Shown piece after piece: positions 1 to 6,159 of a stretch of DNA of 64,000 nt. A program made the translations under genes and the position numbers. Source of the stretch: Cupriavidus basilensis. GTDB lineage: Bacteria; Pseudomonadota; Gammaproteobacteria; Burkholderiales; Burkholderiaceae. Position 1 is the first letter of the stretch. Every line of letters begins with the position of its first letter. The DNA lies in the NCBI RefSeq assembly GCF_000832305.1, contig NZ_CP010536.1, positions 1,860,001 through 1,924,000 of the forward strand, given 5' to 3'. The notes below the pieces were generated by a model. That model worked only from the letters and a program-made list of their open reading frames with translations, was not told where the DNA came from and ran no database searches.

Positions 1-2
1 AG

Positions 3-941
3 ATGACGGCCAGGTACGGGCTGCCGTACTTCCAGAATTTCATCAACTCGGAGCTGGAGCCAAATATGGTGCGCTCCATGTGCTGCCGGCTCCAGCTCGA
101 CCTGCGCGAGCTGCTCAAGCGCGGCAACGGCCTGTTCGGCAGTGCCGAGCAGACCGGCAGCGTGGGCGTGGTCACGATCAATTGCGCGCGCCTGGGCTAC
201 CTGCATGCCGGCGATGAAGCGGCGCTGCTGCGTGCGCTCGACCGCCTGCTGGATCTGGGCAAGCAGAGCCTGGAGAACAAGCGCACGCTGATCCAGCACC
301 TGATGGACCAGGGCCTGTTCCCCTACACGAAGCGCTACCTGGGCACCTTGCGCAATCATTTCTCGACGCTGGGCGTGAACGGCATCAACGAGATGATCCG
401 CAACTTCACCGCTGACCGGCACGACATCACGTCGGAGTGGGGCCATGCCTTCGCGCTGCGCTTGCTGGAACATGTGCGCGAGCGCATTGTGGCCTTCCAG
501 CAGGAAACCGGCCATCTTTACAACCTCGAAGCGACCCCCGCCGAAGGGGCAACGTACCGCTTCGCACGGGAAGACCGCAAGCGCTGGCCGGAGATCCGCC
601 AGGCCGGCACGGCCGCACAGCCCTACTACACAAATTCCTCGCAGTTGCCGGTCGGCTGGACCGACGACCCCTTCGAGGCGCTGGCGCGGCAGCAGGCCTT
701 GCAGTCCAGGTACACCGGCGGCACGGTGCTGCATCTGTACATGGGCGAGCGCCTGTCCAGCGGCGAGGCCTGCCGCGAACTGGTGCGGCGCGCGCTGACG
801 CGCTTTCGCCTGCCGTACATCACGGTGACGCCGACGTTCTCGATCTGCCCCACGCACGGCTACCTCGCCGGCGAGCATCCGTTCTGCCCGCGGTGCGACG
901 AAGAGATCCTCGCGCGCAAGCGGGACCCGATCGCCGCCTGA
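3..941 (+). CDS. nrdD: Anaerobic ribonucleoside-triphosphate reductase, large chain (3' part; 5' end outside window)
   Basis: Class III (oxygen-sensitive) ribonucleotide reductase, which makes dNTPs during anaerobic growth. The frame is open at the window edge; about 312 C-terminal residues are visible, so roughly the first half is missing. Family-typical stretches are YGLPYFQNFINSELEPNM near the start, a TGGTVLHLY block near residue 240, and TPTFSICPTHGYLAGEH followed by CPRC, which matches the zinc site just before the C-terminus. The chain stops 12 residues after CPRC, before the glycyl-radical motif that normally ends NrdD. That motif is in a separate ORF 65 bp downstream (1007-1207). Family assignment is firm; whether the split is natural is treated as a finding. 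Confidence 0.93.
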   Translation: MTARYGLPYFQNFINSELEPNMVRSMCCRLQLDLRELLKRGNGLFGSAEQTGSVGVVTINCARLGYLHAGDEAALLRALDRLLDLGKQSLENKRTLIQHLMDQGLFPYTKRYLGTLRNHFSTLGVNGINEMIRNFTADRHDITSEWGHAFALRLLEHVRERIVAFQQETGHLYNLEATPAEGATYRFAREDRKRWPEIRQAGTAAQPYYTNSSQLPVGWTDDPFEALARQQALQSRYTGGTVLHLYMGERLSSGEACRELVRRALTRFRLPYITVTPTFSICPTHGYLAGEHPFCPRCDEEILARKRDPIAA

Positions 942-1006
942 CCAGGATCCGCTGTTCTTTTCATGCCCCGGTTTTTTCAACCCACTCTCAAGACGGAGTA
1001 AATCTG

Positions 1007-1207
1007 ATGACTCACCAAGCTCAATCCTCGCCATCCACGCAATTCCAACCTTGCAGCGCCGCGCTGCGCGACGAGGAGCGCCAACCCTGCGAGGTCTGGA
1101 CCCGCGTGATGGGCTATCACCGCCCGGTCTCCAGCTTCAACACCGGCAAGCAGGGCGAGCACCGCGAGCGGCGCTTCTTCACGCAACCCCATGCCATCGA
1201 CGCCTGA
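1007..1207 (+). CDS. Detached glycyl-radical domain of anaerobic ribonucleotide reductase (66 aa)
   Basis: This small protein carries CEVWTRVMGYHRPVSSFN followed by TGKQGEH...RRFF, the motif that in ordinary NrdD proteins forms the extreme C-terminus; the Gly of RVMGY is the expected radical site. It has its own GGAG ribosome-binding site at 995-998, 8 nt before the ATG, and is in a different reading frame from the upstream nrdD piece, which ends in TGA at 939-941. The open frame continues upstream without a stop, so a frameshift fusion cannot be excluded, but the local start signals favour independent translation. It overlaps the start of nrdG by 17 bp, suggesting translational coupling. NrdD function would then need two polypeptides to assemble. 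Confidence 0.85.
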   Translation: MTHQAQSSPSTQFQPCSAALRDEERQPCEVWTRVMGYHRPVSSFNTGKQGEHRERRFFTQPHAIDA

Positions 1208-1910
1208 CGTATGCGCGGCGGCGGCCCGGCGCCGGCGCGACGCGGCCACGTTGCGTATCGGCGGCATGACAGCGCTGACCACGATCGACTTCCCCGGCCG
1301 CCTGGCCGCCGTCCTGTTCTGCCAGGGTTGTCCGTGGCGGTGCGGCTATTGCCACAACCAGGACTTGCTGGATGCTGGCGTGCCGCCCGCCATTGCCTGG
1401 GCGGATGTGCAGGCCTTCTTGCAGGCGCGGCGGGGCCTGCTCGACGGCGTGGTGTTTTCCGGGGGCGAGCCAACCCTGCAGGCGGGACTGCCCGGTGCCA
1501 TCGAGGCCGTGCGGGCCGAGGGGTTCGAGGTTGCGCTGCATACCGCCGGCATGTACCCCGATCGCCTGGCCGCCATCCTGCCCCGGCTGGACTGGATCGG
1601 CCTCGATCTCAAGGCACCCCTGCATCGGTATGAGGCCATTACACGGGTGCCGGGCAGCGGGGAGAGGGCTTGGGAATCGCTGCGCCGGTGGCTTGCCAGC
1701 GGCGTGGCGGGCGAATGCCGCACCACCTGGCACGCCGGCCTGTTCGATATCGCCGAGCTGCATGCGCTGGCGCAACGGATCGCCGCGCTTGGCGTGACGC
1801 ACTGGGCGTTGCAGGCGTGCCGCGGCGGCGGCGCGAGCGCCTCGCTTGGCCGCTACGATATCGCCAGGCTGGCATCGCACTTCAGCAGTTTCACGCTGCG
1901 CACGGCGTGA
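1191..1910 (+). CDS. nrdG: Anaerobic ribonucleotide reductase activating enzyme (radical SAM)
   Basis: Generates the glycyl radical on NrdD using S-adenosylmethionine and a [4Fe-4S] cluster. The radical-SAM motif is seen as CPWRCGYC (C-x3-C-x2-C) near residue 47, preceded by TTIDFPGRLAAVLFCQG, a stretch typical of NrdG, and followed by the GGEPTLQ loop near residue 90. Length 239 aa. The ATG at 1191 lies inside the end of the glycyl-radical ORF; a shorter start around 1251-1266 would also keep all conserved sequence, so the N-terminus is uncertain. Order nrdD, glycyl-radical ORF, nrdG indicates one operon. Confidence 0.93.
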   Translation: MPSTPDVCAAAARRRRDAATLRIGGMTALTTIDFPGRLAAVLFCQGCPWRCGYCHNQDLLDAGVPPAIAWADVQAFLQARRGLLDGVVFSGGEPTLQAGLPGAIEAVRAEGFEVALHTAGMYPDRLAAILPRLDWIGLDLKAPLHRYEAITRVPGSGERAWESLRRWLASGVAGECRTTWHAGLFDIAELHALAQRIAALGVTHWALQACRGGGASASLGRYDIARLASHFSSFTLRTA

Positions 1911-1938: not shown

Positions 1939-2034
1939 TCGATTGGCGGGTAGGGGCCACGCAGCCAGCGTGGTCCGTACTACGATGGGATGACGCGTGA
2001 CAGGAAACCAACAGTAATGCGCAAGGAGGCAAGC

Positions 2035-2388
2035 ATGCTCACCAGACAAACTTCGAACGGGACGGGCAGGTTCGACTACCAGGGGCCGGAGGAGTGGCGC
2101 ATACCGATCAGGGATGCCCTGCGCCGCGTGGTGGATCCGGAACTGGCGCTAAGCATCCTTGACGTTGGCCTGATCTACGCCATCACCGTATCGGACGGAT
2201 CCGTGCATGTCTCGATGACCATGACTTCCGCCGCATGTCCGGTGGCCGACATGATCCTGGACGACGTGCAGCTCGAACTGGAAGGCGTGATGCCCCTGGG
2301 GTACCTGATCGATGTGGAATTAGGCTGGGAGCCCGCATGGACGCCGGAGCGCATGAGCGCCAGCGCGAAGCACGCCATGGGATGGTGA
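2035..2388 (+). CDS. DUF59/MIP18-type metal-sulfur cluster assembly protein
   Basis: 117 aa. The body RDALRRVVDPELALSILDVG followed by LIYAI and MTMTSAACPVADMI matches the DUF59 (PaaD/SufT/MIP18) fold, small proteins that help mature Fe-S enzymes; the Cys in the AACP motif is the family's conserved residue. Start chosen at 2035 because AAGGAGG at 2023-2029 sits 5 nt upstream; an earlier in-frame ATG at 1990 has no such site. It overlaps the next ORF by 7 bp, indicating translational coupling. Neighbouring Fe-S enzymes (NrdG, NarGH) make a role in anaerobic Fe-S assembly reasonable, but the client is inferred only from context. Confidence 0.85.
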   Translation: MLTRQTSNGTGRFDYQGPEEWRIPIRDALRRVVDPELALSILDVGLIYAITVSDGSVHVSMTMTSAACPVADMILDDVQLELEGVMPLGYLIDVELGWEPAWTPERMSASAKHAMGW

Positions 2389-3524
2389 GCGTGGCCGCGC
2401 GCCGCGCGCAAGGACGCCAGCGCAAGACCTGGCCCCGGCTGGCCGTGCTGCTGCTGGCCGTATGCGCATTGCTCGCGGGCATGCTCGGTGGATGGATGCG
2501 CGCGGGCGTGATGCTGCCATGGGCCGGCGATTACCACGTGGCGTGGCGCGCGCTGCAATTCCACGGTGCCTTGATGACCGGCGGCTTCTTCGGCACGGTC
2601 ATCGGCATCGAGCGTGCGGTGGCGCTCGGCCGTCCCGTGGCCTTTGCGGCGCCAGTCGCATCGGGGCTGGGCGCTTTGCTGATGGTGGCGGGATTGCCTG
2701 CCGCCGGCGCTTGGGCCATGGCGGCCGGCGCGCTGGTGTTCGTGGGCGTCAGCGTGGAAGTCCTGCGGCGCCAGCCGGCCGCCCATACCGCCTTGCTGCT
2801 GGTCGCCGCGGTGGCCTGGCTGGCGGGCAACGTGGGGGTGGCGTCAGGCCGCTGGCTGGCCTCGGTCAACGCCTGGTACTTCATTTTCCTGGTTGTCACG
2901 GTCGCTGCCGAGCGGCTTGAAATGACGCGCCTGATGCGCCGCCGGCCCGGCGCGCAAGCGGCTTTGCTTGCCATCCTGGCGGTGCTGGTGCTGGGTGCCG
3001 CCGGCTCGGCGCTGGAAGGCGGCGCGGGCAGGATCGGCGGCGTCATCTATGGCGCAGCGCTGGCGTTGCTTGCCGCCTGGCTGGCACTGTTCGACATTGC
3101 GCGCCGCACGGTGCGCAGCCACGGACTGAGCCGCTACATGGCGGTCTGCCTGCTTCTGGGCTACGGCTGGCTGTTGGTGGCGGGCGTGGCGTGGGCGGCA
3201 ACCGCGGCAGGGCTGCCATGGCGCGACGCCGCGCTGCATGCGCTGGGACTGGGCTTTATCGTCAGCATGGTGATGGCGCATGCGCCTGTCATCCTGCCGG
3301 CGATCACGCGTATCAAGCTGCAGTTCGGCAATGGCTTCTATGTGCCGCTTGCCTTGCTGCACTTGTCCCTGGCCGCGCGACTGAGCTTCGGCCACGCGCT
3401 GCCTGCAATCAGGGCGGCGGCGGCGGCGGGCAACGTTGTCGCCATCCTGCTCTTCATCGCTGTCGCCGCCGCCGCGGCGCAGGCATGGCGATCCCGCGAG
3501 GCGCCACGGCCCCGGCAGTCCTGA
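2382..3524 (+). CDS. NnrS-like polytopic membrane protein
   Basis: About 380 aa and almost wholly hydrophobic, with roughly 11-12 predicted membrane helices. Motifs FHGALMTGGFFGTVIGIERA near residue 60 and LHALGLGFIVSMVMAHAPVI near 285 place histidines inside or beside helices, as in the NnrS/heme-copper-related membrane proteins linked to nitrosative stress. Start chosen at 2382, which overlaps the preceding stop codon (ATG 2382-2384, TGA 2386-2388). The frame is open further upstream, but that stretch is shadow of the DUF59 gene. Context between anaerobic RNR and an NsrR-like regulator supports a NO-related role; biochemical function is not established from sequence. Confidence 0.7.
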   Translation: MVSVAARRAQGRQRKTWPRLAVLLLAVCALLAGMLGGWMRAGVMLPWAGDYHVAWRALQFHGALMTGGFFGTVIGIERAVALGRPVAFAAPVASGLGALLMVAGLPAAGAWAMAAGALVFVGVSVEVLRRQPAAHTALLLVAAVAWLAGNVGVASGRWLASVNAWYFIFLVVTVAAERLEMTRLMRRRPGAQAALLAILAVLVLGAAGSALEGGAGRIGGVIYGAALALLAAWLALFDIARRTVRSHGLSRYMAVCLLLGYGWLLVAGVAWAATAAGLPWRDAALHALGLGFIVSMVMAHAPVILPAITRIKLQFGNGFYVPLALLHLSLAARLSFGHALPAIRAAAAAGNVVAILLFIAVAAAAAQAWRSREAPRPRQS

Positions 3525-3561
3525 ATCTTCCACCGGAGAACGAGGGCCGCTGCGGCTGGCC

Positions 3562-4011
3562 TCAGTTTCTGACCGGATCCACGGCTACGCCGGCATGCGG
3601 CGCAGCCGGGAATGCCCGCGCCAGCAGGTCGGCGAGCGTATAGCCTTCAAGATGTTGCAGGAAACGCCGGCGAGCGCCATCCATGACGCAGCACAGATGC
3701 TCGTCGCTCGCGAACTTGCGGGCGCTGCCGTCGGCGAGGCCGGCAACCAGATCGAAATCGGGCTCCACGCTGCGAACCACGTCGCCGAGATTGATGCTTC
3801 CCGGCCCGGACGACAACTGCATGCCGCCGCCTCTGCCGCGCATGGTTGCGATCCATCCCTGGCGGCTGAGCTTGTGCGTCACTTTGACGATGTGTGCTCT
3901 GGAGATACCGTAGGCCTGCGCGATCTCGCTATTGGTGCACATCCGTTCAGGATGCCGCGCCACGTAGATCAGCAGCCGTAGCGCGTAGTCGGTCATGGTG
4001 GTAAGGCGCAT
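3562..4011 (-). CDS. Rrf2-family regulator, NsrR-like, with degenerate cluster ligands
   Basis: 149 aa winged-helix Rrf2 protein: MRLTTMTDYALRLLIYVARH starts it, the recognition region NSEIAQAYGISRAHIVKV spans about residues 27-44, and a Gly-rich wing RGRGGGMQL is at 58-66. NsrR proteins bind a NO-sensitive [4Fe-4S] cluster through three cysteines near residues 91-105 and, in some members, Asp8. Asp8 is present here, but the only cysteines are C25, C107 and C108, so the usual triad is absent. A GAGAGGT ribosome site precedes the ATG. An NsrR-like palindrome at 4159-4181 lies about 150 bp upstream. It could be a cluster-free repressor or use other ligands. Confidence 0.82.
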   Translation of the reverse strand: MRLTTMTDYALRLLIYVARHPERMCTNSEIAQAYGISRAHIVKVTHKLSRQGWIATMRGRGGGMQLSSGPGSINLGDVVRSVEPDFDLVAGLADGSARKFASDEHLCCVMDGARRRFLQHLEGYTLADLLARAFPAAPHAGVAVDPVRN

Positions 4012-4037
4012 CGTATCGACCTCTCAGCCTGTCGGGC

Positions 4038-4085
4038 TGTTGGTTCCTGGCTCTTGGTTCTTGCCTGTTGGTTCGTGGCTCTTGG
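4038..4085. repeat. 20-bp imperfect direct repeat, 28-bp period
   Basis: TGTTGGTTCCTGGCTCTTGG at 4038-4057 recurs at 4066-4085 with one change (C to G at position 10), in the leader of the Rrf2 gene. No function is evident. Confidence 0.6.
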
Positions 4086-4158
4086 CCCCGGTCAGAACGG
4101 CAGGCAGGAAGCTCGGGGCATCAAGCCTCCGCTTGCGGCGGGAGACATCACGAAATTT

Positions 4159-4181
4159 AAGATTCATGGTGAATGTATCTT
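4159..4181. promoter_or_regulatory. NsrR-like palindromic operator
   Basis: Half-sites AAGATTCAT (4159-4167) and ATGTATCTT (4173-4181) form an inverted repeat with one mismatch per arm. The AAGATnCAT/ATGnATCTT layout resembles the published NsrR box. It lies upstream of the minus-strand Rrf2 gene, so autoregulation is the simplest reading; no plus-strand gene follows closely. Confidence 0.55.
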
Positions 4182-4263
4182 ATGAGGCGCGACGCCGCCG
4201 TGCTTTGTCGCAATGCATTGACCAAAGACAAGCCGAGTCGAGCGCAGGCGATGCCGAACGGGG

Positions 4264-4302
4264 AAAAAAGAAGCCTGCCCATAGTTCGTACGGACAGGCT
4301 TC
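4264..4302 (-). terminator. Rho-independent terminator (minus strand)
   Basis: Arms GAAGCCTG (4270-4277) and CAGGCTTC (4295-4302) pair exactly, with two further G-C pairs inside. Read on the minus strand the hairpin is followed by six T (A4264-4269). It lies 175 bp beyond the end of the DUF2249 gene and could end that transcript. Confidence 0.65.
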
Positions 4303-4476
4303 AGGCCAGCAACATCAAGGCCACCGGGCGCGCCCCCGCAACTCAGTGGCCTCATTGGCATCTTGCCTCAGGACTGCCTGGGCCGGCTTGTCCGCGGGCA
4401 AGCCAATTGCGGAAAAAGCGAATCGGGAGAGCGAAGACGGCCTGAATGCGGCGCAGGACGGCGTGGTTAGGCGTGG

Positions 4477-4863
4477 TTAGCCGCCGCTGCAGCCGCAGCC
4501 CGTGCCGTTTGCGCCGCCGCATCCCTGTGTGGCGGCCGCGGGATGCACGGTGAAGTCGATCACCACGGCATCGCCCGCGCGCTCAACGTAGGCAATCTGG
4601 CGTTGGTCTTGATAGCGCCGGCGCAGTTGCTCGATCAGGGGAAGGGGGTCGCGATCGTTGACGAATCGCATCGACTCGCCTTCGCCCAGCGCTTCCAGCG
4701 CGCCAAAAATCGCGGCATGGCGAAAGCGCCTGGCGATGCCGCGCGCGTTGAATAGAAAGGCAGGGTTGGTTTGGATGGTAGCGTAAGTGGGCGAGGTTTT
4801 AGCGCTTCTAGCTGCTGTCGCGGCTGTACGGTGTTGGCCGTTTTGGAACGTGTGAGATGTCAC
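4477..4863 (-). pseudogene. DUF2249-domain gene with damaged or unclear 5' end
   Basis: The domain begins at ARGIARRFRHAAIFGALEAL (about residue 41) and includes FVNDRDPLPLIEQL, typical of DUF2249 proteins, small cytoplasmic proteins often found in nitrate/NO gene clusters. The C-terminus is Cys-rich (GCGGANGTGCGCSGG) and might bind metal. The only in-frame start before the domain is a GTG at 4863-4861, at the edge of the 26-bp palindrome at 4862-4887, with no ribosome site. The first 40 residues are low-complexity and not part of the family. The original start was probably lost when the repeat entered; expression from the GTG is possible but doubtful. An Fnr-like site stands about 370 bp upstream. 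Confidence 0.6.
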
Positions 4864-4887
4864 TTTTCTTTACTCGTAAAGAAAAGT
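4862..4887. repeat. Perfect 26-bp palindrome (REP-like)
   Basis: ACTTTTCTTTAC, a 2-nt loop TC, then GTAAAGAAAAGT, followed by AACCAAAAGAAAG. Sequences of this kind are common dispersed repeats in Ralstonia/Cupriavidus-type genomes (recollection, not searched). It abuts the doubtful start of the DUF2249 gene. Confidence 0.75.
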
Positions 4888-5282
4888 AACCAAAAGAAAG
4901 CGATCCTTGCAGGAGGCTGGCGTGTCGGGGTTGCGTAGCCCGGTGGTTTCGTCGTCAGGCCCCGGGTTTTAAAGGACTCGTGCCGTTACCGGTTTGAATG
5001 GCCACGATCCTGTGAATGACGCTGGTTTCGTGGTGGGGCTGCTCGGTAGCGGCATCCCTGCTCATTCACACATCTGCCGGTACCGGTCCGAATCGCCACG
5101 ATATATCGCGCCATGATGGTTTCGTGGTGGGGTGGGCGCGGTGGTGAATCCCTCAGAACTGTTCCGGCGGTGCCACCGCGCCCACGACGAAAATGGAACG
5201 CCGCGCTAGCGAGGGATCGGCCCGCCGCGATTGACGCCGGTCAAGCCATTTCTGGTTGGGGTTGCATGCCGCGAGGGCGCGC
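4888..5282. repeat. Non-coding tract with a 58-bp imperfect direct repeat
   Basis: Copies at 4981-5038 and 5075-5132 both begin TGCCGNTACCGGT, contain GAATNGCCACGAT and end GGTTTCGTGGTGGGG. A partial third copy of the GGTTTCG end is near 4945. No convincing ORF is present. An Fnr-like site lies at 5231-5244. The whole tract looks like inserted repeat material between the DUF2249 gene and the Crp/Fnr gene. Confidence 0.6.
5231..5244. promoter_or_regulatory. Candidate Fnr/Dnr-type site
   Basis: TTGAC-GCCG-GTCAA, with perfectly symmetrical half-sites. It lies beyond the 3' end of the Crp/Fnr gene and points, if anywhere, at the minus-strand DUF2249 gene about 370 bp away, from which it may have been separated by the repeat insertion. 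Confidence 0.45.
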
Positions 5283-5963
5283 TTACCGTCCGGCAAACCG
5301 GCGCTCAAGCGCCTGGATATCGTGAATCACGACTTCAGGGCCGGCCACGGTGATCAAGGCGGCTTCGCTGAGCCGCTGCAGGGTGCGAGACAGCGTTGCC
5401 GGCGACAACCCCAGCTTGGAGGCAATCAGGTTCTTGTTGACGGTAAAGCGCGTGAGGTTGCCCTCGCGAGGCCCGTTCAGCAGGTAGCCGATCACTCGCT
5501 GTTGCGAGTTGTGCAGGTTCACTGTCTCGATATCCTGCACCAGGGTATGCAGACGCATCGACAGGCCCGCAAGCATGCGGCGCGCAAACGACGGATCGCG
5601 ATCGATGGCGGCGAATATCTCCTTTTTGTCGAGCAGGATCAGCAGCGTGTCATCGAGCGCCTGGGCGTCTACCAGGTAGGGGCGGTCAAGGAACATGACG
5701 GCCTCCCCAAATGCCTCGCCGGGGCCGAAGAACTCGACGATTTTCTCGGGATTGCCGTGCACCGAGGGCAGCGCCAGCTTGATCTGGCCAACGGCAACAA
5801 CGTACAAGCCCGCAGCCGCGTCGCCGCGCCGGAAGAGACGGCTGTGCTTGCATACCCTGACCTCATGGCAGGAGCCCGCCAGTTCGGCCAGTTGTTCTGC
5901 GTCGAGGTTCCTGAAGAGCGGCAGGCTTCCCAGTAGTCCCTCCAGGTTTAGTTTGTGGCGCAT
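5283..5963 (-). CDS. Crp/Fnr-family regulator, Dnr-like (no N-terminal cysteine cluster)
   Basis: 226 aa from the chosen start. An N-terminal cyclic-nucleotide-binding-type beta-roll (about residues 10-125) leads through a long dimer helix to a C-terminal winged helix with recognition segment NKNLIASKLGLSPATLSRTL. The four N-terminal cysteines of oxygen-sensing Fnr are absent, which places it with Dnr/NnrR-type regulators that sense NO, probably through heme. The start at 5963 is preferred to 5990 because GAGG stands 7 nt before it. Its position among hemerythrin, NnrS-like and nar genes, and the Fnr-like sites around it, make it the likely local regulator of nitrate/NO genes. Effector is inferred. 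Confidence 0.85.
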   Translation of the reverse strand: MRHKLNLEGLLGSLPLFRNLDAEQLAELAGSCHEVRVCKHSRLFRRGDAAAGLYVVAVGQIKLALPSVHGNPEKIVEFFGPGEAFGEAVMFLDRPYLVDAQALDDTLLILLDKKEIFAAIDRDPSFARRMLAGLSMRLHTLVQDIETVNLHNSQQRVIGYLLNGPREGNLTRFTVNKNLIASKLGLSPATLSRTLQRLSEAALITVAGPEVVIHDIQALERRFAGR

Positions 5964-6159
5964 GGATTGCCTCAGTGGCGGTGGTTGCATCGGTCAGGCT
6001 GTCGCAGCCTGCCTCCAGGGCACGCCGGCCTTGCGGACCGGCCGATGGTGGCGTATCCGGAGCGCGGCGACAGCCACGTAGCGCATAGGATTCCACGCCC
6101 GGGGCAACCGGGCCTTGTGGCAGATCAAGTCTGCCGTCCTGGCTGGCGAGCTTTGACGG

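Follow-up and report, generated by a model that had tools for sequence, protein, structure and literature searches.

A class III ribonucleotide reductase encoded in two pieces in Cupriavidus basilensis, its glycyl radical loop probably supplied in trans by a 66-residue chain

To our knowledge, all known glycyl radical enzymes keep the radical and the active site on one chain. The one-piece NrdDs of Thermotoga maritima, T4 and Prevotella copri, with NrdG as partner, combine an NRDD domain, a zinc-site motif and a radical glycine motif, zinc site and radical loop standing on the same polypeptide; in P. copri, the GRD (residues 676-739) holds both the Zn site and Gly711 (PMC11226230). The Cupriavidus basilensis locus described here has all of these parts, but its chain is broken between zinc site and radical loop. 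Small radical proteins that act on a partner have been described for pyruvate formate-lyase (PFL): YfiD/GrcA and T4 Y06I are autonomous glycyl-radical proteins serving the barrel of another chain, an action in trans that gene layout suggests for C. basilensis too. GrcA supports formate production by PflB-G734A in vivo (PMC12338860), and YfiD and Y06I were the only such spare parts validated by 2021 according to a source that considers others possible for further glycyl radical enzymes (PMC8683613). GrcA, however, backs up an enzyme with a radical domain of its own, whereas the small protein of C. basilensis is the only radical module found and matches NrdD rather than PFL. NrdJa/NrdJb of Pseudomonas aeruginosa likewise distribute a reductase over two chains (PMC9669993; PMC4520616), but belong to the B12-dependent class II, without a glycyl radical. 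Phage nrdD is interrupted in six cases by introns, inteins or unexplained fragmentation, and here the likeness to our locus ends, for in its passages on these genes the source describes no stand-alone radical module (PMC3653736). Within the literature searched, which leaves out most subscription journals, we found neither a description of a two-gene NrdD nor an experiment on the small protein, which does not imply that the arrangement is unpublished.

The window, by which we mean the whole 64,000-nucleotide stretch of C. basilensis DNA analysed (G000:C1:1860001-1924000), opens inside nrdD (Table 1). The ATG at position 3 lies within the gene, whose true start is 835 bp before the window, and the open reading frame that begins there (L085:9166-10941) extends to 941, where the large chain ends in ...CPTHGYLAGEHPFCPRCDEEILARKRDPIAA and a stop codon 14 codons past the zinc-site CPRC. 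An earlier note on this DNA had described such an ending, followed 65 bp on by an RVMGY motif in another frame with its own GGAG and ATG, and a direct reading bears it out: the class III NrdD gene is broken between its zinc-site and radical motifs, and WTRVMGYHRP is coded in a small ORF of 66 codons, carrying CEVWTRVMGYHRPVSSFNTGKQGE, whose frame differs from that of the large chain. The start of nrdG, which the note also saw overlapping this ORF, does so by 17 bp. The note's main reading, a radical domain carried on a separate chain, holds, with the refinement that the break falls inside the C-terminal radical domain and leaves the zinc site to the large chain.

Table 1. Features of the two-piece nrdD locus and its activase gene, in positions of the window.
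Feature	Position	Strand	Basis or remark
nrdD large (catalytic) chain, 3' part	1..941	+	PF13597 positions 231-532; 591 aa in full
Zinc-site motif CPTHGYLAGEHPFCPRC	846..896	+	Near large-chain end; read from sequence
Spacer	942..1006	+	65 bp; downstream gene in different frame
GGAG, Shine-Dalgarno-like	995..998	+	8 nt before ATG of small ORF
Small glycyl-radical chain of 66 aa with its own ATG	1007..1207	+	PF13597 positions 532-562; separate gene in relatives
Gly36 codon in WTRVMGYHRP, predicted radical glycine	1112..1114	+	Motif conservation; T. maritima alignment
nrdG, radical SAM activase of NrdG2 type	1191..1910	+	TIGR02495, 182.3 bits (cut-off 131.15)

The full large chain matches PF13597 over positions 2-532 (573.8 bits), and the small chain over positions 532-562 (34.3 bits, cut-off 26.2). 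Since the match runs over 231-532 in the first ORF of the window and 532-562 in the second, the two share one NRDD domain, of which together they make up the C-terminal part, with the junction at position 532. Alignment of the large chain to T. maritima NrdD (4coi) covers residues 99-610, and its last stretch, to residue 610, is HGYLAGEHPFCPR of the zinc-site motif; the whole motif, CPTHGYLAGEHPFCPRC, would bind zinc by analogy with known NrdDs. In a search of solved structures the small-protein profile aligned with residues 617-645 of the same enzyme, a match weak on its own (E=0.06) but spanning the T. maritima radical residue, Gly621. Gly36 of the small chain stands in WTRVMGY, a radical loop of the R-V-x-G-Y type, and is invariant across the 18 rows of alignment A1. 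NRDD is the only Pfam family that the small chain matches at E up to 1, and no PFL-type glycyl radical domain was found in it. Reductase barrel, zinc-site motif, radical loop and NrdG-type activase are thus all at hand, but the loop is not on the barrel's own polypeptide: a stop codon, the spacer and a new start intervene. At the other end of the large chain, no ATP-cone was matched at E up to 0.01 in the corresponding region (L085:9166-9300), and the enzyme may have lost the dATP off-switch. The homologue in Cupriavidus necator H16, whose N-terminal residues resemble those of the window NrdD, matches the ATP-cone at 15-103, and in another genome (G013) the open frame is, as here, 591 aa long.

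The surroundings of nrdD are nitric-oxide and denitrification genes (window 1990-5990 and L085:6730-9015), with a NorB-type nitric oxide reductase upstream. Downstream of nrdDG are genes for an iron-sulfur assembly protein, a 429-aa product with no Pfam match, an Rrf2 regulator and a Crp-type regulator, in an order that is largely that of the C. necator H16 megaplasmid.

The split layout is a common and widespread variant of class III reductase and is not peculiar to the C. basilensis genome. Scanning genome_contigs with the small protein returned at least 585 stretches, 576 of them confirmed, and the best 80 of the 576 were kept and sorted by their matches to a large-chain and a small-chain model. 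The same split, which the earlier note had proposed to seek in other genomes, was found at 77 of these loci, one being fused (L048, Simkaniaceae) and two having a small ORF without a nearby large chain (L014, L070); this share, and the conservation of the motif in 80/80, are biased towards look-alikes, the loci being the best small-protein matches. The small ORF of C. basilensis is no chance frame: it is the sole match of its kind in its own genome and recurs as a separate ORF at those 77 cellular loci. Existing annotation gives each of the two ORFs its own gene in C. necator H16, where the small one is H16_RS32675, and in Bradyrhizobium ottawaense. The small-protein profile finds at least 8000 matches in the protein database, a figure that includes short metagenome contigs on which the ends of fused genes may mimic small proteins; among the 120 matches listed, 119 start with M and lengths run from 60 to 86 aa. 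Nearer home, NrdD occurs in 6 of 23 members of the genus (C. basilensis included) and in 5 of 14 genomes of the same order. All six of the former are split, as are four of the latter (the fifth, G039, is fused), a result opposed to the uniformly fused close relatives that the earlier note had named as the outcome telling against a two-piece enzyme.

In a sample of 299 genomes from the phylum, 47 matched PF13597, of which 13 read as split, 33 as fused and one as a weak fragment (G335). Eleven of the 13 split calls come from two separate PF13597 matches, while G238 and G296 were settled by reading the sequence. Every split genome has a separate radical ORF (13/13), and no fused one has an extra stand-alone copy (0/33). 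The split gene of G238 (L204, reverse strand) belongs to a 0.9-Mb genome and has the variant motif FSRSMGF instead of WTRVMGY. These counts bear on the alternative that survives best, in which the small protein merely mends a one-piece NrdD that oxygen has cleaved, a spare part in the manner of YfiD. Such a role has its precedents in YfiD and Y06I, and the suggestion of spare parts for other glycyl radical enzymes has been made (PMC8683613), but no one-piece NrdD to be repaired was found in the C. basilensis genome, its only PF13597 matches being the two described above, and a spare part might be looked for beside fused enzymes, where the phylum sample has none. We consider it unlikely.

Programmed frameshifting or stop read-through, by which the products of both ORFs would be fused during translation, finds some encouragement in three loci (L166, L170, L208) where the ORFs share a frame, separated by one or two stops. 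Elsewhere the layout is poorly suited to it. In 75 of the 80 cellular loci (L006, L014, L042, L048 and L070 were skipped), the relative frames of the two ORFs are distributed 25/24/26, and spacers range from -56 to 298 bp with a median of 33; since the frames are evenly spread, frameshifting and read-through are excluded as a general mechanism. A Shine-Dalgarno-like motif precedes the chosen start in 73 of the 75, a count biased by a script that preferred the last ATG with such a motif. Furthermore, the pieces need not be neighbours. In G043 about 9 kb of the same contig separates them, the small ORF being directly upstream of an nrdG (TIGR02495, 197.0 bits), and in L070 the small ORF is again followed by nrdG (197.7 bits), with no large chain seen in the 1.7 kb that the contig leaves upstream. 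Fusion in translation is accordingly very improbable for the pair as a whole. A frameshift introduced by sequencing or assembly, or the decay of a normal one-piece nrdD into a pseudogene, would account for two ORFs in different frames that code collinearly for parts of one domain. Yet the radical motif is intact, the spacer carries its own start signal, and the same break recurs with differing spacers in many separately sequenced genomes, among them H16, the 77 related cellular loci and every NrdD-bearing member of the genus; the earlier note had already disfavoured this reading, which we now find scarcely credible, and a real two-gene enzyme is strongly supported in its place. Post-translational joining into a single working chain, by split intein or ligation, has nothing found in its favour and can be set aside as extremely improbable, half an intein having little room in the 14 aa past CPRC on the large chain and the roughly 19 aa before the conserved block of the small one.

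The locus very probably encodes, then, a class III (anaerobic) ribonucleotide reductase whose two polypeptides are translated separately, with the loop likely supplied in trans. The large chain would provide the barrel, catalytic site included, together with the C-terminal zinc site; the 66-aa chain would contribute Gly36 in its radical loop and the C-terminal tail, and nothing else. NrdG would abstract a hydrogen from Gly36, leaving the radical on the small chain. The loop of that chain would then reach into the large-chain barrel, face the catalytic cysteine there and hand the radical to it. Assembly of the two chains in trans is likely from gene layout and conservation, and a possible advantage would be cheap replacement of the small chain once oxygen cleaves the radical site. 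An AlphaFold model of a relative aligns with the one-piece NrdD structures of T. maritima, T4 and P. copri, a result that could hardly have failed, the model being of one linked chain from another species and built with 54 rows of one-piece enzymes. Its segment 386-393, which includes the invariant cysteines 387 and 388, has pLDDT below 50 and gives no basis for a Gly-to-Cys geometry.

Fused relatives of the enzyme are abundant; among the 120 of them listed, 119 have the motif that was searched for and the other has WTRVVGY. In these 120 the distance from the last CxxC to the radical motif varies from 6 to 50 aa, and the break therefore falls in a segment of free length. Trees were built from the large chain alone, cut before the radical loop, the small protein being too short. 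On a FastTree phylogeny of 210 large chains (120 fused, 90 split), where split forms are interleaved with one-piece NrdDs, the fewest changes between the two states number 17. A quick IQ-TREE analysis of 44 rows gives nine changes, at least four of them forced by well-supported branches; with two long-branch rows dropped, the remaining 42 give eight and reject a single split clade (p-AU 9.0e-5). These trees show that there has been more than one split or fusion event. In G296, which belongs to another NrdD subfamily, a TAG stop is followed by AAAGGG and a new ATG before RRITGY (L197:3280-3600); this looks like a separate case of splitting, a weaker one with a single in-frame stop in one genome. 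One fused NrdD, from a Chlamydiae MAG (P0128, 736 aa), has a radical segment that looks tandemly duplicated, DRQECEGWTRVMGYL and then DRQECEVWTRVMGYF.

The small module is also found in viral sequence. An IMG/VR scan returned 149 stretches, 148 of them confirmed, and the records of the 80 kept (L086-L165) were searched whole. The radical module (roughly profile positions 530-562) is present in all 80, in 77 above the family cut-off, and MGY is kept in every copy (75 RVMGY, 5 RCMGY), although some of the copies are near-identical (61 distinct 37-aa cores in 80 records) and four lack the cysteine that precedes the motif. The large chain was matched in a single record (G354), with a further weak match over 486-538 below the cut-off in G404, and NrdG (TIGR02495, TIGR02491) in none above the cut-off, with weak matches in G354 and G418; any radical SAM domain exceeded its cut-off in just three (G354, G388, G418). 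The records show no completeness estimate and may be fragments, and such absences are not proof. Terminase matches in 21 of the 80 (19 to phrog_2, those in G366 and G401 weak, and two more to PF03237) and the neighbouring genes support the view that these records are phages, with the qualification that 11 of the 14 cell genomes used as controls match phrog_2 as well. The neighbours were surveyed as the five nearest ORFs at 28 of the 80 loci (140 ORFs), together with 20 single ORFs, four of them without a match, and include portal, terminase, tail, DNA polymerase and helicase genes. Near position 4000 of the locus, the radical ORF of L162 has a replication initiation gene on one side and a helicase on the other; that of L148, also at about 4000, comes after a replication initiation gene. 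In the annotated phage collection there were two weak matches only, both below 60% identity, and the phage claim therefore rests on the IMG/VR contigs. One possible role for the viral copies is that of spare parts for one-piece enzymes of their hosts. A wider proposal, that the radical module is an exchangeable, mobile subunit and the ribonucleotide reductase counterpart of YfiD/Y06I, we put forward tentatively and rate a little short of an even chance: in cells it would be an obligate subunit, encoded separately so that the piece open to oxygen cleavage can be cheaply renewed, and in phages a repair or takeover part, re-arming the host large chain with the help of host NrdG during anaerobic infection.

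In C. necator H16, nrdDG is reported to be essential for complete denitrification, and the genes of C. metallidurans are given in the same source as Rmet_5137 and Rmet_5139, with one number between (PMC2864759). The H16 nrdD has the same split as that of the window, and residue 650 of its 676-aa large chain is the glycine of CPTHGY, in the zinc-site motif and not the radical motif. Siedow and colleagues are said to have assigned the H16 radical in 1999 to Gly650 of the large chain, with loss of function in a G650A mutant. That assignment conflicts with a radical on the small chain, and one of the two must be wrong. If the assignment was indeed made to this residue, G650A may have broken the zinc domain, the radical glycine would be Gly36 of the small protein, and the assignment to Gly650 deserves re-examination. 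In the same organism, trans-assembly and spare-part use become testable. If the two-chain reading is true, a separate radical subunit would be the sole radical source for DNA precursor synthesis in many bacteria, and phages would carry that subunit alone.
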